Source: Actinomycetes bacterium
GTDB taxonomy: Bacteria; Actinomycetota; Acidimicrobiia; Acidimicrobiales; Acidimicrobiaceae
Length of the DNA: 33,759 nucleotides
NCBI GenBank assembly: GCA_021806545.1
Contig: JAJZXI010000010.1
Coordinates: 1 to 33,759 of the forward strand
Reading direction: 5' to 3'
The notes under the pieces are model-generated. The model did not search any database and had not been told where the DNA came from. It was given only the letters and a program-made list of their open reading frames with translations. Shown one piece after another: positions 1,104-23,193 of the stretch (its first letter is position 1; each line of letters opens with the position of its first letter). The position numbers and the translations under genes are program-made.

Positions 1104-1703
1104 CTACGAGAAGTAATGCCACTGCGAGAGCGGCCAATAGATCAGGATCACCCGACCGACGATAAGCGACCGTGAAATCGGGCCAAAAACCCGTGAGTCA
1201 GCTGAGTCGCCACGATTATCTCCGAGTACGTAGTACTCATTCTTCGGAATATGAATCGCTCCCCCTGAGGGTGTGTGGATACCATGGGTTTGCACCCCCT
1301 TTGGCAAGAAGGGCTCGGCAATAGGCTTGCCGTCGATGTACACCTTCCCATCGTGACTCCAGATCGTCTGGCCAGGTAGACCAATGACGCGCTTGACAAG
1401 GTAGTGAATCTTGGCGCTCGTATGGTCGTTGGCCGGTTTGTGAAACACAACGATGTCGCCAAAACCCACCGGATGCAGGTGATAACTTAGCTTGTCAACG
1501 ATCATATGATCCCCGATCTCGATCGTGGGGATCATCGACCCTGAGGGCACATAGAACGACTCGAAGACGAAGCTGCGCACCATTACCGCGGCGACCAAGG
1601 CGACGATCAAGACGATCAACCAGTTCCGCAAACCATGAGATTTACGTCTAGTGGACCTCGCCTTCGTGGCCCCTGTTGCCTCTTGGGCGATCCCGTCGGT
1701 CAT
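1104..1703 (-). CDS. lepB: Type I signal peptidase
   Basis: This enzyme cleaves Sec and Tat signal peptides from exported preproteins at the outer face of the membrane. The 199-residue protein has a basic N-terminus, one membrane segment (about 28-46) and then the S26 core. The nucleophile is Ser56 in PSGSMIPT. The general base is Lys104 in VKRVIGLPG. Box E is [11 protein letters not shown] near 160. This is a single-TM, Gram-positive-style enzyme. Its ATG overlaps the pafA stop (ATGA), making it the last gene of the proteasome operon and probably translationally coupled to pafA. Signal peptidase is not an established part of pupylation, so the linkage may reflect shared control of protein quality rather than direct partnership. 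Confidence 0.95.
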
Positions 1704-3073
1704 AGTCCAGCGATCAACCTCTCCACCCGATCGTCATAGGAGGCGAACGGGTCCTTCAACATCACCGTACGTTGCGCTTGATCGTTTAACTTCAAGTGCA
1801 CCCAATCTACCGTATAGTCCCGGTGGTGGGCCTTGGCCGCCGCAATGAATTCACCCCGTAGCCTCGCCCGTGTCGTCTGTGGCGGCACATCGACGGCTCG
1901 CTTGATCCGTGCCTCATCGACCAGCTCAACGGTCCGCCCATGATCAACGAGCTTGTAATAGACACCTCGACGTCGATTGATATCGTGATACTGAAGATCC
2001 ACGAGTGAGACCTGCGGATGGGAAAGCGGAAGATCGTGCCGCCTACGGTAGTCCTCGATCAATCGAAACTTGGTGACCCAATCAACACGCCCGTCAAGCT
2101 TCAAGGGGTCATCGCGTAGCAATGAAAGCGCCTCGCCCCACATTGTCAATGCACGCTGCTCATCGGCTGGGATTGCGTGACCTTCAGCAAAGCGCTGGAC
2201 GCGTTCGAAGTAGCTCTCTTGAATTTCGAGAGCCGTCATCTCTCGACCGTTGATCAAGCGCACCCGTTTGGTGAGCGACTGGTCGTGGGAAATCTCACGA
2301 ATGGCTCGAATCGGATTCTCCATCGAGAGGTCGCGCAGTACCACATCGTGCTCGAGCAGTCGCAGCACCAACGACATCGCGCCTACCTTGAGATACGTCG
2401 CCCACTGCGACATGTTCGAGTCGCCGACTATCACGTGCAGTCGACGGAAACGCTCCGCGTCAGCGTGAGGCTCATCTCGGGTATTGATAATCGGACGAGA
2501 ACGGGTGGTAGCAGAGGAGACGCCCTCCCATATGTGTTCGGCACGCTGGGAAAGCGTATAGACAGGGCCCCGGGACGTCAGCAACACCTTGCCAGCACCG
2601 GCATAGATCTGCCTCGTAACCAAAAATGGGATCAGGACTTCGACGAGACGCGAAAGGTCATCGACGCGCAGGGTGAGAAAATTCTCATGGCACCCATAGG
2701 AGTTGCCCGCTGAATCCGTATTGTTCTTGAGTAGATAAACCGCGCCCCTGATGCCCTCTTCTCGCATGCGCACCTCGGCAGAGTATGCCAGCGACTCAAG
2801 GATCAACTCGCCTGCCTTATCATGGCTGATGAGATCGTCGAGGCTGTCACACTCTGGTGTCGCGTATTCCGGATGACTTCCGACATCGAGATACAGCCGT
2901 GCTCCATTTTCGAGGAAAACGTTCGAGGACCGACCCCAGCTGACCACGCGACGAAACAGGTAGCGCGCCACCTCGTCCGGACTCAGGCGTCGCTGGCCTC
3001 GCAACGTACAGGTAACCCCATACTCATTCTCAATACCGAAGATTCTCCGATCCAGCTCGCCAACCCTGCTCAA
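1700..3073 (-). CDS. pafA: Pup--protein ligase
   Basis: PafA phosphorylates the C-terminal Glu of Pup with ATP and joins it to substrate lysines, marking proteins for the Arc-20S proteasome. The 457-residue length fits the family. The glutamine-synthetase-like core is visible: IFGIENEYG at 11-19 (nucleotide and metal site) and [14 protein letters not shown] from 61, where Asp63 matches the catalytic Asp. NSYGCHENF and [11 protein letters not shown] are further family blocks. The start is TTG overlapping the prcA stop (TTGA), and the stop overlaps the lepB start. It is a paralogue of Dop in the same operon. It is distinguished from Dop by the shorter N-terminal part, which lacks the Dop insertion around residues 40-75. 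Confidence 0.96.
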
Positions 3074-3756
3074 CCAGCGTCACCTAGCAGTGCTTGCAGT
3101 TCAGCACCGTTCACTCTTCGAAACGTTCTTCGTTCCCCGCGATCCTCAAGCACTGCAACCTCAAGATCTTGAGGGTTGAGGCGCTCATCGCCATCCTCAA
3201 GCGCCGCTACCGAGGCGCGCAATGCCTCCCTGAGCCCCCAATTCTCAGAGTAGTGTTGAGCGACCCGCTCAGCAATGCTATCGGAGTCGCCTCCAATGAC
3301 CGCAAACTGTCGCTCGTCGACAACCGTTCCGTCATAGAGAACATGGAACAGCTCCGCATCCCTGCCACTTCGTCCAAGTTCGGCCACCAAAATCTCGACT
3401 TCGAGCGGCTTTACCTCATGGGTAAAGACCTGACCAAGGTACTGCGCATACAGATTGGCAAGACTACGGGCATCGACATCGTCACGCGCGTAGGCAAACC
3501 CCTTCGTATCGGCATGTCGAATCCCCGCAACCCTGAGCTGGTCGAATTCGTTGTACTTGCCGACGCCGGCGAACGCAATACGGTCATAGATCTCGGAGAC
3601 CTTATGCAGTGACCGCGATGGATTCTCGGCACAGAGCAAAACCCCGACCTCATAGACCATCCCCACCAGAGCGCGGCCGCGCGCGATACCCTTGCGGGCG
3701 TAATCCGCACGATCCTTCATCATCTGCTCAGGAGCAACGTAAAAGGGCATACTCAC
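3070..3756 (-). CDS. prcA: 20S proteasome alpha subunit
   Basis: The 228-residue non-catalytic alpha subunit forms the outer rings that gate the core and dock the Arc ATPase. The N-terminus ([11 protein letters not shown], then [15 protein letters not shown]) is the bacterial alpha signature with the gating segment. The rest follows the Ntn-hydrolase fold without a processed Thr. The start is GTG overlapping the prcB stop (GTGA), and the third codon is an ATG that could serve instead. The stop overlaps the pafA TTG. Tight coupling to prcB suits the 1:1 stoichiometry of alpha and beta rings. Confidence 0.95.
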
Positions 3757-4562
3757 CGGGCTCGTCTCCTTGTCGTCAACTCCTGCTCAAGCTCCTGGGC
3801 CAGTGCGACGAGCTCCTCATCGCCCACACGTTGATAACCCGTCTCGTCTATCACCCCAATCACTGGGAAGATCCCCCGCAAAAGATCGGGCCCGCCCGTG
3901 GCCGAGTCCTCCTGAGCTGCCTCGAAAAGTGCCTTCGTCGCTAGCCGAACCACTTCATCACGGCTCATACCTGGGCGGAAACCGAGGCGCAGGGTAGCAC
4001 GGGCATCACGCCCTCCCGACCCGGTCGCGTAGAACGCCTCCTCCTCGTATTTTCCACCCGCAATGTCATAGGTAAAGATCCTCCCCTGACTACGGTGCAG
4101 ATCCCAACCGGCGAACAACGGCACAACCGCGAGACCCTGCATCGCCATTCCCAAGTTCGCTCGGATCATCTGAGCCAGCTGATTCGCCTTGCCCTCGAGA
4201 GAGAGAACCGACCCCTCCACCTTTTCGTAGTGCTCCAACTGCACCTGGAATAGGCGGACCATCTCGACAGCGGGACCAGCCGCGCCCGCGATAGCTACCG
4301 CCGAGTACCTATCCGCCGGGAACACCTTCTCAATCGTGCGGTTCGCGATGATATTTCCTTCGGTAGCGCGCCGATCTCCCGCGATCACCACACCATCACG
4401 GAACCGTGCAGCAGCGATCGTCGTCCCGTGTGGCACACCATCGACCGACCCACCTGACATCGGTACTGCCCCAACGGCACCCCCGCTGGCTCCAAGAAGC
4501 CCTAGCAGTCCGGCAAAATCAGGGCCCGGGTCCCGAACTACGTCAAACAATGGCAGCGCCAA
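3753..4562 (-). CDS. prcB: 20S proteasome beta subunit (proteolytic)
   Basis: The catalytic beta subunit degrades pupylated proteins inside the core. Of its 269 residues, about 46 form a Gly-rich propeptide that is removed autocatalytically before Thr47 in HGTTIAA. Counting from Thr47 as residue 1, Asp63 (GDRRATEGN) is D17 and Lys79 (IEKVF) is K33, so the full catalytic set is present. The GSGG motif near 183 is also typical. The first codon is TTG with GAGAGAGG about 10 bases upstream. No ATG fits, so the exact N-terminus of the propeptide is slightly uncertain. It lies 33 bases downstream of pup and overlaps prcA by 4 bases. Confidence 0.95.
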
Positions 4563-4595
4563 CGCTTACCGCCTCTCTCTATTCGCTTCGATAGC

Positions 4596-4790
4596 CTACT
4601 GTCCACCCTTTTGCACATAGTTCCGGACGAACTCTTCGGCATTATCCTCAAGCACCTCGTCGATCTCATCGAGGATATCGTCAAGCTCGGCCTTCAACTG
4701 ATCAGAGCGTTCCGCCGATGGTGTCGCCTCCTCTTCGGCTACCTCTGGCCGAGTTGAGGACGACTTTCGAACTTGTTCACGTTCAGCCAT
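4596..4790 (-). CDS. pup: Prokaryotic ubiquitin-like protein Pup (Gln-terminated)
   Basis: This 64-residue, highly acidic, probably disordered tag is the substrate of Dop and PafA. It ends in Gly-Gly-Gln, so it must be deamidated by Dop to Gly-Gly-Glu before ligation; a Dop gene lies directly upstream. The central region (SDQLKAELDDILDEIDEVLE) is the helix expected to dock on the Arc coiled coils. GAGGTGG sits about 5 bases before the ATG. It is 31 bases downstream of dop and 33 bases upstream of prcB, the classical actinobacterial order. Confidence 0.97.
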   Translation of the reverse strand: MAEREQVRKSSSTRPEVAEEEATPSAERSDQLKAELDDILDEIDEVLEDNAEEFVRNYVQKGGQ

Positions 4791-4821
4791 GTATCCACCT
4801 CACCTTTGCACTTTATCCTAC

Positions 4822-6315
4822 TTATGAACCTAGTGCTTCGACCAACTCTTGTGCACTGTGTACCCGTCGCAATAGCTCACCAACATGGGCCTCGGTTCCA
4901 CGCAAGGGGTCCATCATGGGAACCCGCCGCAGGGGATCCGTCCCCAGATCGAAAATGATCGAATCCCAATTCGCCGCCGCAATCGAACCAGGAAACTTGG
5001 CAAGACAGGTCCCTCGAAAGTACGCCCGCGTATCCGGGGGCGGGTTGCTCGTCGCCCAACTCACCGTCGTCTCATCAAGCATTCGCCGCATAGGCAGACG
5101 ACGAAACAGGGACCTCTCGGGTCTGAGATCGTGGTATTGCAGGTCGATGGCGGCGAGCCTCGGATCCCCCACCTCGATCTGATGACGCTCCTGATAGCCC
5201 CGCACGAGCTGCCACTTCGCCACCCAGTCAAGGGTGTCTGCAAGGGTCATGGGATCGTCATCGAGCGCCTGGAGCACACGACCCCACTCCTCCAGTAGCG
5301 CCGGACCGTCGGTCTCATTGCCGAGGTAACTGACGCCGAAATGCTCTACATACTCGAGCGCATGCTCGAGATAGGCGTATTGAACCTCCAGGGCGCGAAT
5401 CCGTCGACCGTCTTGGAGCAGAACTGAGCGCTGCAACGTTGGATCCCAGGAGATCTCTCGCAGCGCCCCCACCGGGTCCGCTAACTCTATCTTGAGGTCC
5501 TGAAGGAATCCGTCTTCGATCATCGCCAAGACGATCGCAGTCAAACCAAGCTTCAACCATGTCGACCTCTCAGAAAGATTGGCATCACCCAGAATCACGT
5601 GCAATCTGCGAAATCGTTGCCCATCCGAGTGCGGTTCGTCCCGCGTGTTGATGATCGGCCGCTTCAACGTCGTCTCGAGCCCAACCTCCTCTTCGAAGAA
5701 GTCAGCCCGCTGCGAGAGTTGAAAGTCGACATCCGTGGCCTTCGATCCAGAGAACTCAGAGCCTACTTTTCCGGCACCGATTATTACCTGACGGGTGACA
5801 AAGAACGGCACCAGCTCCTTGACGAGCTGCTGAAACGGAACCTCACGATCGACAAGGTAGTTCTCATGACATCCGTAGGAATTCCCTTTGCGATCGGAGT
5901 TATTCTTGTACACCACGATCTCCTGACCGGCGGGCAGCAACCGGCGTGCGCTGGCCATCGCACGAACCATGACCTCCTCACCCGCCTTGTCGTACAGAAG
6001 CGCTTGCGACGGTGAGATGCACTCCGGTGACGAATACTCAGGGTGAGCATGATCCACATAGAGTCGAGCGCCGTTGGTCAGTACGGCGTTCACCAGGTGC
6101 GTATCGAGCTCGATACCCGAGCCGCCATCGATGGCGAACCCTCGGGCATCGACCCCAGGTGACTCGTCCACGAAGTCCCACTCGACCCGGTCAGCCAGGC
6201 CCGCGACATAGGCGTTGATCAACGTCGATGACGTCGAAATCGGGTTGGCCTCCGGCGCACCAGCGACGACGATCCCGTATTCAGTCTCTATGCCGAGTAC
6301 CTTGGGTATTGGCAT
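4822..6315 (-). CDS. dop: Deamidase/depupylase of Pup
   Basis: Dop converts the Pup C-terminal Gln to Glu and also removes Pup from conjugates, using ATP as a bound cofactor. The 497-residue protein shows GIETEYG at 8-14 and YVDHAHPEYSSPE from 86, with Asp88 as the likely catalytic Asp. Unlike PafA it has the extra N-terminal loop (about 35-75) that marks Dop. NSYGCHENY and [10 protein letters not shown] are shared with PafA. GAGGAGAGG precedes the ATG. It lies 39 bases after arc and 31 before pup. Having both Dop and a GGQ-ending Pup makes the system self-consistent. Confidence 0.96.
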   Translation of the reverse strand: MPIPKVLGIETEYGIVVAGAPEANPISTSSTLINAYVAGLADRVEWDFVDESPGVDARGFAIDGGSGIELDTHLVNAVLTNGARLYVDHAHPEYSSPECISPSQALLYDKAGEEVMVRAMASARRLLPAGQEIVVYKNNSDRKGNSYGCHENYLVDREVPFQQLVKELVPFFVTRQVIIGAGKVGSEFSGSKATDVDFQLSQRADFFEEEVGLETTLKRPIINTRDEPHSDGQRFRRLHVILGDANLSERSTWLKLGLTAIVLAMIEDGFLQDLKIELADPVGALREISWDPTLQRSVLLQDGRRIRALEVQYAYLEHALEYVEHFGVSYLGNETDGPALLEEWGRVLQALDDDPMTLADTLDWVAKWQLVRGYQERHQIEVGDPRLAAIDLQYHDLRPERSLFRRLPMRRMLDETTVSWATSNPPPDTRAYFRGTCLAKFPGSIAAANWDSIIFDLGTDPLRRVPMMDPLRGTEAHVGELLRRVHSAQELVEALGS

Positions 6316-6354
6316 CGCCTCTCCTCTCGCTTTGGGATGTAACGAACGTCGACC

Positions 6355-8103
6355 TCACAGATACTGACCAGTGGCTACGCGCTCGATCGCGCGCCCGCCC
6401 TCCGATCCCTCCTCTTGAGAGAGAAGTATGCGCATGAACACGATCCGCTCTCCCTTCTTGCCAGAGATCTTGGCCCAGTCATCTGGGTTCGTTGTATTCG
6501 GAAGATCCTCGTGCTCTTTGAACTCCTTGGATATGGAGTGAATCAAATCATCCTGAGTGATTCCAGGAGGATCACCGGCAATCTCGCGCTTGATGGCCAG
6601 CTTCTTTGCTCGCCGGACGATATTCTCGATCATCGCTCCGGAAGCGAAGTCCTTGAAGTACAGAACCTCCTTCTCGCCGTTCTGATAGGTAACCTCGAGG
6701 AACCGGTTCCCATCGACCGCGGCATACATCGTCTCTACTGTCGCCTCAATCATCCGCTGCACCGTCAACTCGACATCGCCGTTGCCCAGCCTGTCCACTT
6801 CGTTCTTGTCGATCGGCAGCTCTGACGTGAGATACCGGGAGAAGATCTGACGCGCGGCAGCACTGTCTGGTCGCTGGATCTTGATCTTCACATCCAATCG
6901 ACCGGGACGCAGGATCGCAGGGTCGATCAGATCTTCGCGATTCGAGGCTCCGATAACGATAACATTACGCAACGTCTCGACTCCGTCAATCTCAGCAAGC
7001 AGCTGCGGAACCACCGTCGACTCCATGTCAGAGCTAATACCGCTTCCTCGTGTGCGAAACAACGAGTCCATCTCATCGAAGAAAACGATGACCGGCATGC
7101 CCTCTTCTGCCTTTTCTCGGGCACGTTGGAAGATGAGTCGAATCTGGCGCTCGGTCTCACCAACATACTTGTTCAACAACTCCGGGCCCTTGACGTTCAA
7201 GAAGTAGCTCTTCACGCTCCGTCCAGAGGTCGCCTCGATCTTCTTGGCCAACGAATTCGCGACCGCTTTGGCGATCAACGTCTTACCACAACCTGGCGGG
7301 CCGTAGAGCAAAATGCCCTTTGGTGCTGGTAGCTGGTACTGCGAAAACAGTTCGCGGTGCAGAAATGGCAGTTCGACCGCGTCTTGGATCTCCTCGATCT
7401 GGCGATCCAATCCACCGATATCGGAGTAACTGATATCCGGGACCTCCTCGAGGGCCAACTCCTCCACCTCAGGCTTCGGTAGTAGCTCGAGCACTACCGA
7501 CGATCTCGGGTCGACCAGCACGCTGTCGCCGACTCGGACTCGGCCAGTCCGCAGCGCACCACTGAGGATGCCCACTCGCTCATCGTCCCCACGTCCAACA
7601 ACGACAACCCGCTCCCCGTCATCGAGGACGTCCTTGACCATCGCGACCTCGCCACTGCGGTCCGCCCCACGTACACCAATCACCGCAAACGACTCATTGA
7701 GCGTGACCTCTTGACCGTGCTGCAGGTCCGCCAGTGCGATGTCGGGATGGACGGCGACCTTCATCTTTCTCCCAGACGAGACGACGTCGACGGTCTCGTC
7801 ATCGTTCACACCTATAAAAACACCGTAAGCGGCCGGAGGTTGGGTGAGCTTCTCAACCTCCTCACGGAGGTTCGCAATGTGCTCACGAGCCTGTTGGAGC
7901 GTGAAGGTGAGCTTCTCGTTCTTTGCCTGCAGCTGCGAGAGAGCTCCCGACACCTCGAGCAGCTTCTCCTCGAGAGCTCGCTCGCGTGAGGGCGCGTCAT
8001 TCATACGACGGCGTAGCTCCTGGATCTCAATCTGGAGCGCATCAACCGTCTGCCGCTCGTCGGCGGCTGCATTGTCATCGATGGGATCTCTGCGATCGAC
8101 CAT
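6355..8103 (-). CDS. arc: Proteasome-associated AAA+ ATPase (Arc/Mpa)
   Basis: A hexameric unfoldase that captures pupylated proteins and threads them into the 20S core. In 582 residues I see a coiled coil at about 20-88 (Pup docking), a double OB region at about 90-215 and one AAA+ module. Walker A is GPPGCGKT at 268-275, Walker B ends FFDE at 339-342, and SNRED and RPGR sensor/arginine-finger regions follow. The C-terminus is GQYL, the tail with penultimate Tyr that inserts into alpha-ring pockets. AAGGAGG lies about 5 bases before the ATG. It is the first gene of the operon and diverges from the ferredoxin gene, so 8104-8259 should hold its promoter. Confidence 0.97.
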
Positions 8104-11357: not shown

Positions 11358-13664
11358 ATGCACATAAATCTTGCCCGATGGTCAACCGACAGACTTCTGG
11401 CTGAGGCGTCAAAGCTCCGCGACCGAAGCTTTGGCCGCCTGACTACCTACTCGCCAAAGGCGTTCTTCCCTTTCACCATGCTCTGTCGTGATAGCTGCGG
11501 ATACTGCACCTTCGCCAAGGCGCCTGCCCGTCTCGCCCAGGCGTATATGACCCTTGACGAGGTTACCAATCTCGCACGCTCCGCACATGCCCGAGGCGCC
11601 ATCGAAGCGCTCTTCACGCTGGGAGAGCGTCCAGAAGATCGCTACGCGATCGCCCGTGAGGAGCTCGATAGGCTTGGGTATCGCTCGACCGTCGACTATC
11701 TACGCCAAGGAGCTGAGACCGCCCTCAAGGAGCACCTACTGCCTCACATCAACGCTGGAAACTTGGCCCCTGACGAGCTCGCGTTGCTGCGACCGGTAGC
11801 CGTCTCAATGGGCATCATGGTTGAGTCAATCAATGAGACGCTGCCGTGCCATCGCCTCGCCCCCGACAAAGAGCCACAGCGCAGACTGCAAATGCTCAAG
11901 GATGCCGGTGAACTCTCAATCCCAATGACCACTGGCCTCTTGATCGGTATCGGCGACACCGAGGGGGATCGTATCGAAGCTCTTCGTGCGATCGCAGCAA
12001 TCGCAGAGCGCTATGACAACATTCAAGAGGTGATCATCCAGAACTTCGTACCCAAGCCAGCGACCCAGATGGCCTTAGTTCCCCCACCATCGCGTGCGGA
12101 GTACCTCAGGTCTATCGCACTGGCGCGGCTTATCTTGCCCCCCACCGTCAGCCTCCAGGCTCCACCTAACCTCTCGGATGATGTGAGCGAGCTTCTCATG
12201 GCGGGGGTCAACGATCTCGGTGGAATCTCTCGAGTGACCCCAGACCATGTCAACCCCGAACGCCCATGGCCCAACACCACAGAGCTCTCCGAACGCCTTG
12301 AGCGTCTGGGCTTTGCCCTCACGCCGCGCCTACCGATCTATCCAAGCTATCTCCAGACGCCATCAAGATGGATTGACGACTCTCTGATACCAGCGATCAA
12401 CTACCACCGCGACCAACTCGGATTTGCGCGAGAGCACCGCTGGTTTTCCGGAGAGCCCACACAGCTACCAGATCGCGTTTTCTTGAAGCCAAGCAATTCT
12501 CTTGCTACCCCAGCATGGCTCGACGAACTACGAGATGAACTTGACGCGGGGCATGAAGCGCCAACTGAACTGCTCGTCGAGGCTGGATCCGCGAAGGGGT
12601 TCGACGTCATGGGCGTGGTCGAACTGGCGGATGACTTGCGTCGCAAAACCGTCGGCGATGTAGTCACGTACGTAGCCAATCGCAATATCAATTACACCAA
12701 TGTCTGTACGTTCAAGTGCCGGTTTTGTGCCTTTTCAAAGGGGCCACTCTCACTAAATTTGCGTGGAACGCCCTATCTCCTGAGTCTCGATGAGATCCTG
12801 GACAAGGTGGGCGATGCGCAAGAGCATGGGGCAACCGAGGTCTGCCTCCAGGGCGGCATCCACCCTACGTTCGATGGTGAGTACTATCTCACCGTAGCCA
12901 AAGCCATTCACACCCAGTTTCCGGCGATCCATCTCCACGGATTCTCCGCTTTGGAGGTATTCACCGGCGCAAAGCGCCTTCATATCGAACTTGATGACTA
13001 CCTTCGACAGTTGCACGATGCGGGTCTCAAAAGTCTGCCTGGAACCGCTGCTGAAATCCTCTACGATCCAGTTCGAGCGATTTTGTGTCCGGACAAGCTA
13101 ACGACTGATGAGTGGTTGCAGGTTCATGCGACCGCGCACGCCGTTGGCTTGCGCTCGAATGTCACGATGATGTTTGGCAGCGTTGAAGACATCGGCGCCG
13201 TCGTGCGACACTTTGATGTCACCCGACAATTGGGCCAAGCCACTCACGGCTTTACGGAGTTCGTGCCACTACCCTTTGTTCACATGGCGACACCCATCTT
13301 CCGTTCGGGAAGAGCTAGGCGTGGACCAACACTGCGAGAAACGGTCCTGATCCACGCGCTCGGTCGCATTGCCTACCACGGAGTTATCGATAACATCCAG
13401 GTCAGCTGGGTCAAACTCGGAGTAGAGGGCGCAGCACTCCTGCTCGGTTGCGGCGCCAACGATCTCGGCGGTACGCTCATGGAAGAGAGCATCTCGCACG
13501 CTGCCGGAGCTACCCATGGCACAGCGCTCACCCACGATGATTTTGCACTGGTCGCCCAGCATGCTGGACGCATACTGCAACAACGTACAACCTTTTACGA
13601 ACCAGTGTCGAACGACCCCAACCAGAGAATCCCAGTCCAAGCAATGCCCGGACTGGCACCATGA
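11358..13664 (+). CDS. fbiC: FO synthase, CofG-CofH fusion
   Basis: This two-domain radical-SAM enzyme makes the deazaflavin FO, precursor of coenzyme F420, from 5-amino-6-ribitylaminouracil and tyrosine. The N-terminal half is CofG-like with C43-x3-C47-x2-C50 (CRDSCGYC). The C-terminal half is CofH-like with C450-x3-C454-x2-C457 (CTFKCRFC), plus CLQGGIHP and SLPGTAAEIL. Both clusters are intact. At 768 residues it is shorter than the mycobacterial protein (about 850), mainly at the N-terminus, where it opens almost directly on the first domain. It appears to be leaderless. Its stop overlaps the LOG gene (ATGA). F420 use is typical of Actinobacteria; no F420-dependent enzyme is evident in this window. 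Confidence 0.95.
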   Translation: MHINLARWSTDRLLAEASKLRDRSFGRLTTYSPKAFFPFTMLCRDSCGYCTFAKAPARLAQAYMTLDEVTNLARSAHARGAIEALFTLGERPEDRYAIAREELDRLGYRSTVDYLRQGAETALKEHLLPHINAGNLAPDELALLRPVAVSMGIMVESINETLPCHRLAPDKEPQRRLQMLKDAGELSIPMTTGLLIGIGDTEGDRIEALRAIAAIAERYDNIQEVIIQNFVPKPATQMALVPPPSRAEYLRSIALARLILPPTVSLQAPPNLSDDVSELLMAGVNDLGGISRVTPDHVNPERPWPNTTELSERLERLGFALTPRLPIYPSYLQTPSRWIDDSLIPAINYHRDQLGFAREHRWFSGEPTQLPDRVFLKPSNSLATPAWLDELRDELDAGHEAPTELLVEAGSAKGFDVMGVVELADDLRRKTVGDVVTYVANRNINYTNVCTFKCRFCAFSKGPLSLNLRGTPYLLSLDEILDKVGDAQEHGATEVCLQGGIHPTFDGEYYLTVAKAIHTQFPAIHLHGFSALEVFTGAKRLHIELDDYLRQLHDAGLKSLPGTAAEILYDPVRAILCPDKLTTDEWLQVHATAHAVGLRSNVTMMFGSVEDIGAVVRHFDVTRQLGQATHGFTEFVPLPFVHMATPIFRSGRARRGPTLRETVLIHALGRIAYHGVIDNIQVSWVKLGVEGAALLLGCGANDLGGTLMEESISHAAGATHGTALTHDDFALVAQHAGRILQQRTTFYEPVSNDPNQRIPVQAMPGLAP

Positions 13665-19974: not shown

Positions 19975-20733
19975 CTACACCAACCTCATATTCACAATCT
20001 CGGCCAGGCTGTGAGCGGCGAGACTCACCGGTATCTCATGGTCATGTGCCTCTTGGATACCTGAACTCACGAGTCCGAACTCGACCCCCAAACGGGCTGC
20101 AAATCTTCCATCCGTACTCAACCGATCACCGACCATAATCGTGTGTTCCTCCAGGAGGGGTCGGAGCAACCCAACCATGGGATCTTCTGGTTTTCCGGCC
20201 ACCGTTGGGCTGACCGAGGTGGCTGTGACCACGGACGCGACGAGGGCGCCAGTACCAGGCACCACAAGGCGCTCAAGAGGATAGGTCGGATCTGCATTGG
20301 TAGCAACGAACCGTGCTCCCGACAGAATCGCTACGCATGCGTTCGACATATCGATGTAACTAAACTTGCGATACCAACCGAGCACGACGCTGTCAATACC
20401 GACCACATCCTCAAGCGATCTCGGCACCACCAGATCGGCACCTACTGCTTCGAGCTCCTCAACCAGCCCCAGCTCACCTATCGCCAGGACACGGTCTCCA
20501 GGTTTTACCAGGGTCGCTGCAGCCATCGCCGAAGTCAAGATCTGATCACGTTGCGCCTCAACACCCATGCGACCAAGCTTGGCCACGTACTGCGATCGTG
20601 AAAGTGAAGAGTTGTTCGTGACGAAGCGAACGTCATGCCCCTGCGCAAGCAGCCGATTAACGGCTTCAACAGAGCCATCGATAGGCGTATCCATTCTCCA
20701 GACCACTCCGTCCAGATCAAGCAACCACTGCAT
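19975..20733 (-). CDS. HAD-superfamily IIA phosphatase (NagD-like)
   Basis: A 252-residue HAD phosphatase. Motif I is DLDGVVW with nucleophile Asp6 and Asp8. Motif II is TNNSS at 39-43. The cap region holds residues to about 180. Motif III is Lys181 in GKPEDP and motif IV is GDRLSTD at 202-208. In mycobacteria the Rv1692 homologue dephosphorylates glycerol 3-phosphate and sits beside a TPR gene, and here a TPR gene also lies close by. The activity here is therefore plausible but unproven. GGAG lies about 7 bases before the ATG. It shares an operon with the CurA-like reductase downstream. Confidence 0.85.
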   Translation of the reverse strand: MQWLLDLDGVVWRMDTPIDGSVEAVNRLLAQGHDVRFVTNNSSLSRSQYVAKLGRMGVEAQRDQILTSAMAAATLVKPGDRVLAIGELGLVEELEAVGADLVVPRSLEDVVGIDSVVLGWYRKFSYIDMSNACVAILSGARFVATNADPTYPLERLVVPGTGALVASVVTATSVSPTVAGKPEDPMVGLLRPLLEEHTIMVGDRLSTDGRFAARLGVEFGLVSSGIQEAHDHEIPVSLAAHSLAEIVNMRLV

Positions 20734-20769
20734 AACTCACTCCGCTTCTCGCCTAACCTAACGGGTCAA

Positions 20770-21645
20770 ATGTCAACCTCGAACCTTAACGCCCCAGGCT
20801 ACCTTCTCACGCAGCTAACCCCCACGGCGCTCGGCAGGGTCCAACCAATCCGTCTTGTGCATCTCGACCCCGAGGGCTCCGGTGCCGAAGGCTTTGACAG
20901 CACCACGACCGCCTTCCAGGAGACGCAAATGGCGGTCGATGGAGCCAGCGGGCTCTATCGCTATACGCTCGCCAGCACCGGAGGGGACATTCGCCGCCGC
21001 GTAAGGGGCCTGGTCGCCGGCATGTCGGTCAACAAGGGGCCGCTACCTCTCTGGATCGCAATCGATGCACCCGACTTAGAGGCAGTCCTGGAGACCCAAG
21101 GAAACTACCTCGGCAACATCGCTGACAACCATGGTGTCCTCCACCGCCTCGAGCGCTACGATGGGTCGGCCCTAACCGCGATGATCGACGCGATGCTATC
21201 CGATCACCCAGCGCTCACGGTATTGCCGCGTCCACAGTCCCCCCCAGCTGGAACCGCCTTGCCGGTCTTTATCACCACACTCGAGGCGACTACCCACTGC
21301 CTGTTTGAACCTGTTGAACTCCCAATGACAGCTCCTATGTGGCGATGGTTGTCACTCAACATGCGAAGGATCAAGATAACCAAGGAGCTCGTCGATACAC
21401 CAGTGGTGCGCTATCACCAAGATGGTCAAACCTATGGCTTCATACACGACTCTTCAGCCACCACCGACCTCTTAGCCGAGGAGAATCATCAAAATCCACT
21501 GGGCGCGAAGCCAACAACGGTTACTTGGATCCCAGATATCACACTGCTCAGAAAGTTCGCGACAGCCTCGCACCGAGGGCTCGAATGTCCTGCGATGCTC
21601 CTGATGTATCCGGCTCCCGGAATCCTCTACGCCGCCTGGCACTAA
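20770..21645 (+). CDS. Unrecognised 291-residue protein
   Basis: I recognise no family. The protein starts MSTSNLNAPGYL at the ATG at 20770. There is no Shine-Dalgarno; TAACCT lies 10 bases upstream, which suggests a short or absent leader. The frame remains open upstream into the HAD gene but that part is on the opposite strand of a good gene. No membrane segment or signal peptide is evident, and there are only two Cys. The sequence is soluble-looking, with a Met/Arg-rich patch near 195-205 (LNMRRIKITKELV) and a Trp-Ile-Pro stretch near 255. It stands between the HAD and TPR genes and is read opposite to both. Confidence 0.7.
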   Translation: MSTSNLNAPGYLLTQLTPTALGRVQPIRLVHLDPEGSGAEGFDSTTTAFQETQMAVDGASGLYRYTLASTGGDIRRRVRGLVAGMSVNKGPLPLWIAIDAPDLEAVLETQGNYLGNIADNHGVLHRLERYDGSALTAMIDAMLSDHPALTVLPRPQSPPAGTALPVFITTLEATTHCLFEPVELPMTAPMWRWLSLNMRRIKITKELVDTPVVRYHQDGQTYGFIHDSSATTDLLAEENHQNPLGAKPTTVTWIPDITLLRKFATASHRGLECPAMLLMYPAPGILYAAWH

Positions 21646-21729: not shown

Positions 21730-22983
21730 TTAAGTCAACCCCGCCAGACGTTCCGCAACGTCGTAGAGGTTGTGATCCTCCTTGAAAAGCTGAAGGTAGA
21801 TCTCCCTGGCACCCGATACATCACCAGCTCGCTCGAACAGCTGAGCCAACAGGTAGCGCTGGCGAATGCTCGTGAGGGTGGAGGCACGTCGCTCCTTGGC
21901 GACCCCCTGCTCCATTAAGGTGATTGCCTCAGATAGCTTCCCTTGGTCAGCAAGTGCACCAGCATAGACAATTCGACCCTCAACGATCACCTCCTTGGCT
22001 GGCGACGCCTCACGTAACCTCAGCCACCACCGTTCAAGTTCGCTGGCGCGTCCCAAAGCACGTGCACAGTCCATGATGACCGGAACTTGGTCGAAGCTTT
22101 CCGTAGCTTTATGAATTTTTCTCAGTATCCTTAGCGCCGCGTCGTAGCGCCCAAGACGATACAAACTCAGGCCCATGAGCTCCAATACCTCAGCCTCGTC
22201 TGGATCCATCGCATCGATTCGCCGGGTAATGCGAAGCGCCTCCTCAAAGCGGTCTCGCTCGTACGCATCAGCCGCCCTAGCAAGGAGTTGCGTCATGGCG
22301 CTCCTGCTCTTGGTGCGCATCGACGGACGCTGCGAGCGGACTTTGGAGTGCGACAAACCAGTATCGGCCGTTGTCCGTTCTCGCGTCTCCGACCTCATCC
22401 CCTCCTGCTGGAGCCAGCGCGAGGCATGAAACCGCAACACGGGAAGCTCCAGGGACACCCCGTCAGCCATCTGCGGGTCCGCCTCTATCGGTGACGCATC
22501 ATCCACCCCTAAACTATCAACAACTTCGTCCGAACGGTCCGGCCTCATCCATCCACGAACGCGATCGTCGTCTCGTGGACGAGCGTAGCGAGGACGGTCG
22601 GTGTCATCCCTGCGGGGACGGTCACCGCGATCGGGTCGAGGACCACCTCGTGCGCTTGCACCAGGGCGATAACCGCCGCGATCGTCGTCTCGTGGACGAG
22701 CGTAGCGAGGACGGTCGGTGTCATCCCTGCGGGGACGGTCACCGCGATCGGGTCGAGGACCACCTCGTGCGCTTGCACCAGGGCGATAACCGCCGCGATC
22801 GTCGTCTCGTGGACGAGCGTAGCGAGGACGGTCGGTGTCATCCCTGCGGGGACGGTCACCGCGATCGGGTCGAGGACCACCTCGTGCGCTTGCACCAGGG
22901 CGATAACCGCCGTCCGGGCGGTCAGACCGATCGGACGATCCCGACTCGTTGGATTGTCTCGGATCGTCTGATCTGGCTGACAT
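21730..22983 (-). CDS. TPR protein with Arg/Asp/Gly repeat N-terminus
   Basis: A 417-residue, probably cytoplasmic protein. Residues 25-141 are three identical 39-residue repeats (GGYRPGASARGGPRPDRGDR then PRRDDTDRPRYARPRDDDR). This is a disordered polyampholyte with RGG-like motifs of the kind that bind RNA. Residues about 142-225 are a linker. From about 229 to the end are helical TPR-like repeats (AYERDRFEEALRI, LYRLGRYDAALRIL, LFERAGDVSGAREI). GGAG lies 9 bases before the ATG. Actinobacterial TPR proteins beside HAD-IIA phosphatases are known (Rv1691/Rv1692 in mycobacteria), and some carry Arg-rich N-termini. Role unknown. Confidence 0.82.
   Translation of the reverse strand: MSARSDDPRQSNESGSSDRSDRPDGGYRPGASARGGPRPDRGDRPRRDDTDRPRYARPRDDDRGGYRPGASARGGPRPDRGDRPRRDDTDRPRYARPRDDDRGGYRPGASARGGPRPDRGDRPRRDDTDRPRYARPRDDDRVRGWMRPDRSDEVVDSLGVDDASPIEADPQMADGVSLELPVLRFHASRWLQQEGMRSETRERTTADTGLSHSKVRSQRPSMRTKSRSAMTQLLARAADAYERDRFEEALRITRRIDAMDPDEAEVLELMGLSLYRLGRYDAALRILRKIHKATESFDQVPVIMDCARALGRASELERWWLRLREASPAKEVIVEGRIVYAGALADQGKLSEAITLMEQGVAKERRASTLTSIRQRYLLAQLFERAGDVSGAREIYLQLFKEDHNLYDVAERLAGLT
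22561..22911. repeat. Three perfect 117-bp tandem repeats inside the TPR gene
   Basis: Units at 22561-22677, 22678-22794 and 22795-22911 are identical base for base by eye. Because 117 is a multiple of three, each adds 39 residues in frame. Identity at silent positions shows a recent expansion or ongoing homogenisation. The copy number is a good candidate for variation between strains, and the array may be miscounted in short-read assemblies. Confidence 0.95.
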
Positions 22984-23193
22984 CTGGTTTCACTCCAATA
23001 GTGCAAGGGAAGACTCTACAAACTTTTGCGCCCGACCATCCTACCCGGTACGACACCAACCCAGGGATGGGAGTGATCATTGCCCTGGTTTGCGCTCCAC
23101 CGATCCTAGGTGTCGCCGATCTTGGACAGCCGCGATACTGACTACCAGCCAATCCATGAAACACGCAGAGTCGATTCTACGACCGCGAGCAGC

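Follow-up and report, generated by a model that had tools for sequence, protein, structure and literature searches.

A perfect tandem repeat within the coding sequence of a TPR protein raises the question of whether the array is real, how it has evolved and what the protein region that it encodes might do. The window analyzed here, 33,759 nucleotides long, is the whole contig of an Acidimicrobiaceae genome. On its minus strand it carries a gene for a 417-aa protein (21730-22983), read from an ATG that lies 9 bases downstream of a Shine-Dalgarno-like GGAG (22993-22996, minus strand); the ATG and the upstream GGAG are found at the equal position in six congeneric genomes. Comparison between species delimits an N-terminal, Arg-rich, disordered low-complexity tail (residues 1-182; 22438-22983, minus strand), which extends beyond the span of residues 1-145 named in an earlier note on this DNA; that span includes the array and misses part of the tail. 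The tail is followed by a linker (22309-22437, minus strand) that starts with LRFHASRWLQQE, is kept within the genus and was modeled with low confidence, and by a C-terminal TPR domain (21733-22308, minus strand) that begins at approximately residue 226 and is kept across the phylum, as judged by profile match. The Pfam models TPR_14 and TPR_19 matched the protein above cut-off, so that the array is indeed fused to TPRs, as the earlier note had stated. AlphaFold modeled the TPR part as a helical superhelix with pLDDT mostly above 90, for which generic TPR proteins were the best matches in the PDB, while the homologous tail of a relative came out of the modeling as unstructured, with pLDDT below 50 over nearly its whole length. 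In NCBIfam, every match to the 417-aa protein fell far below cut-off, which leaves it outside any named family, and assignment to a specific TPR subfamily was rejected, since generic Pfam TPR models alone pass the cut-off.

A search of the whole window with TRF detected a single tandem array, at 22560-22912, with a period of 117, 3.0 copies, 100% matches, 0 indels and a score of 706; elsewhere in the genome, over 485 kb, the next-best array scored 90. When the 117-bp unit was searched against the complete 2.42-Mb, 161-contig genome, it was found, each time with 100% match on the minus strand, at 22561-22677 (the copy closest to the TPR domain), 22678-22794 (the middle copy) and 22795-22911 (the copy closest to the start codon), and no further copies were present outside 22561-22911. 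The units are in frame with the 417-aa ORF, and each encodes GGYRPGASARGGPRPDRGDRPRRDDTDRPRYARPRDDDR, with 12 Arg, 8 Asp and no Lys by our own count. All 117 bases, of which about 32 per unit are synonymous sites, are the same in the three copies, which bears out the three perfect in-frame repeats previously described. The copies provide two independent comparisons, with 0 changes across about 65 synonymous sites, and a copy-to-copy divergence above roughly 5% is therefore unlikely (our own estimate, by the rule of three). Set against a pS of 0.6-0.7 between this species and others of the genus, this absence of synonymous differences supports the recent expansion of the array that had been proposed. 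Two other ORFs cross the array, one antisense (22371-23141, plus strand) and one overlapping on the same strand (22545-23006, minus strand). Both were rejected as by-products: ORFs run through the array because its period is divisible by three, and codon-position bias favors the TPR frame.

The genomes of related species allowed the turnover of the repeat to be followed. Among congeneric genomes, the exact repeats measure 64 nt (period 123), 83 nt (period 114) and 61 nt (period 120). The congeneric genome G004 holds two exact repeats of 65 and 64 nt, whereas G005 holds a single copy; their TPR parts are 96% identical, and their tails differ by 38 aa, equal to 114 bp or one unit. The variable copy number suggested by the earlier note thus holds between species, each represented by one genome. 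Most congeneric species bear their own homogenized repeat, and since the copies are alike within a genome yet diverged between genomes, the sequences point to concerted turnover rather than to one event. Of the 81 tails searched with TRF in the wider family, 44 carry tandem arrays, and 43 of these have a period divisible by three; other relatives show hardly any array or none. The tail drifts in sequence and length but preserves its reading frame and residue composition, and the interpretation of the array as a coding minisatellite under concerted turnover, with in-frame units homogenized per genome and varying in number between relatives, is well supported.

The copy number of three comes from a single draft assembly, and the perfect array could in principle be an assembly artefact that conceals a real gene with a different number of copies, or with one. 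The exact identity extends over 236 nt, longer than the usual short-read k-mers, and contigs of relatives tend to break at this place: by hand count, contig ends within 700 bp of the match fall on the tail side in 15 cases and on the other side in 1 (p = 5e-4). Among the draft contigs that end on the tail side are those of loci L009, L018, L025 and L027, and the tails of several relatives contain runs of N. However, comparable arrays are present in the single-contig genomes G012 (102 bp x 4.6, 98%) and G248 (420 bp x 1.8, 100%), independent exact repeats occur in the congeneric assemblies, and a false repeat would not recur family-wide, although the count itself could be wrong. We thus consider an artefactual array highly improbable. 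Whether the window truly has three copies is uncertain, since such arrays break assemblies, and the number may have come out too low or too high. Draft genomes break systematically at the TPR gene, which is a warning for assemblies.

Relatives of the TPR gene were found in 48 of the 60 near genomes, and a phylum-wide search of 296 genomes with the TPR profile gave matches in 165, the weakest of which may represent different TPR proteins. Throughout the phylum, it lies upstream of a HAD phosphatase gene, followed by TlyA, NAD kinase and RecN. In the window and in the congeneric genomes, the TPR gene precedes the HAD-IIA phosphatase gene (19975-20733, minus strand), a conserved downstream neighbor identified by Pfam/NCBIfam and synteny; the window itself showed no TlyA, NAD kinase or RecN, and the full order is present in other members of the order. 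The same full TPR-HAD-TlyA-NAD kinase-RecN order is seen in genomes of family f56, the mycobacterial identity of which we infer from gene order, and it corresponds to lprJ-Rv1691-Rv1692-Rv1693-tlyA-ppnK-recN in M. tuberculosis (PMC3072309). By its TPR domain and its gene order, the gene is assigned to an actinobacterial family defined by the Rv1691/MSMEG_3754 locus. It shares with Rv1691/MSMEG_3754 both the domain and the neighborhood (PMC3072309), and differs in its N terminus: where the gene order of a genome is mycobacterial, the ortholog carries a short Arg/Gly/Pro-rich tail and no tandem array, in contrast to the long, array-bearing tail in the window. Between the TPR and HAD genes lies, on the opposite strand, a 336-aa ORF (20635-21645, plus strand) with counterparts in relatives at 48%, 40% and 26%. 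It had no Pfam or NCBIfam match and is probably a real, fast-evolving gene.

The composition of the array is unusual. Its 119 aa contain 37 Arg, 24 Asp and no Lys, along with 6 Tyr, and 5 RGG and 9 RG motifs are present in residues 1-182. The tail with the array has 33 Arg per 100 aa, while the runner-up among disordered-type windows, the insert of Rho, has 16; this comparison used a 518-kb sample, about 21% of the genome, with 460 ORFs picked mechanically. The composition noticed before is accordingly without equal elsewhere in that sample. Arg and Asp alternate closely, their mixing exceeding that of all 500 shuffles, and the array thus displays the features of an Arg-enriched mixed-charge domain, namely high Arg and Asp, close alternation and few Lys. 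Similar properties recur in the relatives. The tails of 79 genomes contain a median of 19% Arg, 2% Lys and 14% Gly, with a median R/(R+K) of 0.90, and 77 of the 79 are net positive. At 92 loci, the tail exceeds the TPR domain of its own protein in R/(R+K) (p = 3e-10), and therefore the preference for Arg is not explained by GC content alone. Of 66 tails compared with shuffles, 62 have the better-mixed charges, 37 of them significantly, and 0 are blockier, the significance for each tail being approximate because repeats within a tail are not independent. No blocky charge pattern of the RNase E type was found in the array or among the 66 tails. The tail is thus an Arg-enriched, Lys-poor region of well-mixed charge, and a disordered, Arg-rich N-terminal tail is, from these comparisons, a trait of the TPR family. 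A search of the open-access literature found no paper describing such tails as a family trait. In the genus of the window the net charge is small, with +9 for residues 1-225 and -1 to +7 in tail cores.

Such a region could be near-neutral filler, that is, a disordered extension free of constraint and encoded by GC-rich DNA, in which slippage repeats persist as long as the frame is kept. Tail length ranges from about 64 to 711 aa across relatives, some of which carry little or no array, and by pN/pS the constraint on the tail is weaker than that on the TPR domain, all of which such an extension would explain. It would not explain the purifying selection that remains. Between species, the whole tail has a pS of 0.6-0.7 and a pN of about 0.3 for most pairs, and with values of 0.3 against 0.65 the tail is under purifying selection and not neutral. 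These whole-tail values were used instead of those for the unit core, in which 39 of 65 changes fall at codon position 3, as pN/pS in a core picked by pattern is biased low. The beginning of the tail is conserved within the genus, and nearly every genome sampled from the phylum repeats the enrichment of Arg, the depletion of Lys, the net positive charge and the mixing of charges. We therefore regard a tail of mere filler as unlikely.

The reading that we prefer, and that we judge about evenly poised between right and wrong, is that the tail, in which the coding minisatellite lies, is a multivalent RNA- or RNP-contacting extension on a conserved TPR adaptor. According to this proposal, the TPR domain would bind a specific protein partner, and the tail would weakly and multivalently contact RNA or RNA-protein machinery, such as RNA polymerase, nascent RNA or ribosomes. 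Slippage, or unequal recombination among the identical in-frame copies, would add and remove units, and their number would set the reach and valency of the tail. Functional data turned up for one member of the family, MSMEG_3754, annotated as the ortholog of Rv1691. It was a high-confidence match in an affinity purification of RNA polymerase, was selected for follow-up and showed no DNA association (PMC7092591). The purification used formaldehyde (PMC7092591), and the co-purification with RNA polymerase could reflect an indirect association. MSMEG_3754 is also listed in a ClpC1 interactome (PMC10433963). Among bacterial low-complexity regions, Arg-rich ones are linked with RNA-binding proteins and Lys-rich ones with DNA-binding proteins (PMC6821194), and in M. 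tuberculosis Rho the Arg/Asp/Asn/Gly-rich insert suffices by itself for binding to RNA (PMC4167861). By analogy, binding of RNA by the tail is plausible, and taken together, the MSMEG_3754 purification, the link with Arg-rich regions and the Rho insert favor a loose contact with RNA or RNP. The RGG/RG repeats of the tail likewise resemble those of RGG-box RNA-binding proteins, RNA binding being a prediction from sequence in the present case. Two points call for caution. The data from M. smegmatis may transfer poorly to the protein of the window, because in genomes arranged as in mycobacteria the orthologs are short-tailed and lack the array. Furthermore, of two Arg/Asp peptides, the blocky one phase-separated and the alternating one did not, and affinity for RNA was reported for the former and not for the latter (PMC9324279); this result and the low net charge argue against assuming strong RNA binding in the genus, where closely mixed Arg and Asp may neutralize each other.

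The same peptide result bears on the suggestion of the earlier note that the repeats form a condensate scaffold. In such a scaffold they would act as stickers driving phase separation, alone or with RNA, at a threshold set by copy number. The 37 Arg and 6 Tyr of the array would suit such a role, and precedents exist in the RNase E bodies of Caulobacter, driven by Arg-rich disordered regions (PMC10412687), and in the Rho of Bacteroides, which phase-separates via a disordered region (PMC10284900). The C-terminal region of Caulobacter RNase E (BR-bodies) resembles the tail in being a bacterial Arg-rich charged disordered region, with engagement of RNA only predicted for the tail. However, RNase E is proposed to depend on charge blocks (PMC10412687), unlike the array, the charges of which are very well mixed, beyond all shuffles, and the tail has a low net charge in the genus of the window. 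With the alternating peptide failing to phase-separate (PMC9324279), the evidence does not support a scaffold, which we consider improbable. The array is close in pattern to the Arg-enriched mixed-charge domains, which consist mostly of Arg and Asp in close alternation (PMC9324279); unlike the array, these are eukaryotic, and the array also holds Gly, Pro and RGG.

Alternatively, the tail may bind protein instead of RNA, either as an Arg-rich lure for acidic partners or as a flexible motif-bearing spacer, with the array setting spacing only. In the linkers of relatives, between tail and TPR domain, a WGx[VL]AR[RK]GA-like motif occurs in 30 of 79 (shuffled mean 0.005) and a [DE]xW[VI]x[DE]-like motif in 31 of 79 (shuffled mean 0.33), with examples at L008, L019 and L009, and these highly non-random motifs speak for such a role. 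Both patterns are absent from the genus of the window, where the linker has LRFHASRWLQ in their place, and a spacer would have no need of Arg over Lys. We thus find protein binding by the tail quite unlikely. PDB matches to kinesin light chain, a binder of W-acidic peptides, had prompted the idea that the linker tryptophan motifs dock in the TPR groove; this was rejected, as the motifs are disordered and undocked in the model of a relative.

Of the known systems, the N-terminal insert of actinobacterial Rho is likewise disordered, Arg/Asp/Asn/Gly-rich and lineage-variable, and tandem repeats are possible in Rho disordered regions too (PMC10284900). The two regions share no homology and belong to different host proteins, and RNA binding, predicted here, has been demonstrated for M. 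tuberculosis Rho (PMC4167861). A repeat motif common to the array and to the Rho insert of the same genome was considered and rejected, the insert being without it. Within the genus (L090-L095), the Rho insert is itself fast-changing, with STNGS-type tandem repeats whose number differs between G004 and G005.

If the tail of the TPR protein does bind RNA or RNA polymerase, the protein encoded beside tlyA throughout the actinobacteria would be a new RNA-associated adaptor. The sister-species copy series, from one to several units, offers a ready-made test of tail length and charge mixing versus exact sequence. A broader version of the proposal, in which the protein is a phylum-wide RNA/transcription adaptor with a tail maintained in a hypermutable state, making the number of repeats an evolvable tuning knob for engagement of the transcription or translation machinery, is in our view rather unlikely. 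Elsewhere in the window, translations from 1700-8103 resemble a Pup-proteasome cluster, with two PafA/Dop-like proteins, two proteasome subunits and an ARC-type ATPase, and a 768-aa ORF at 11358-13664 resembles a fused radical-SAM FO synthase of the CofG/CofH type.
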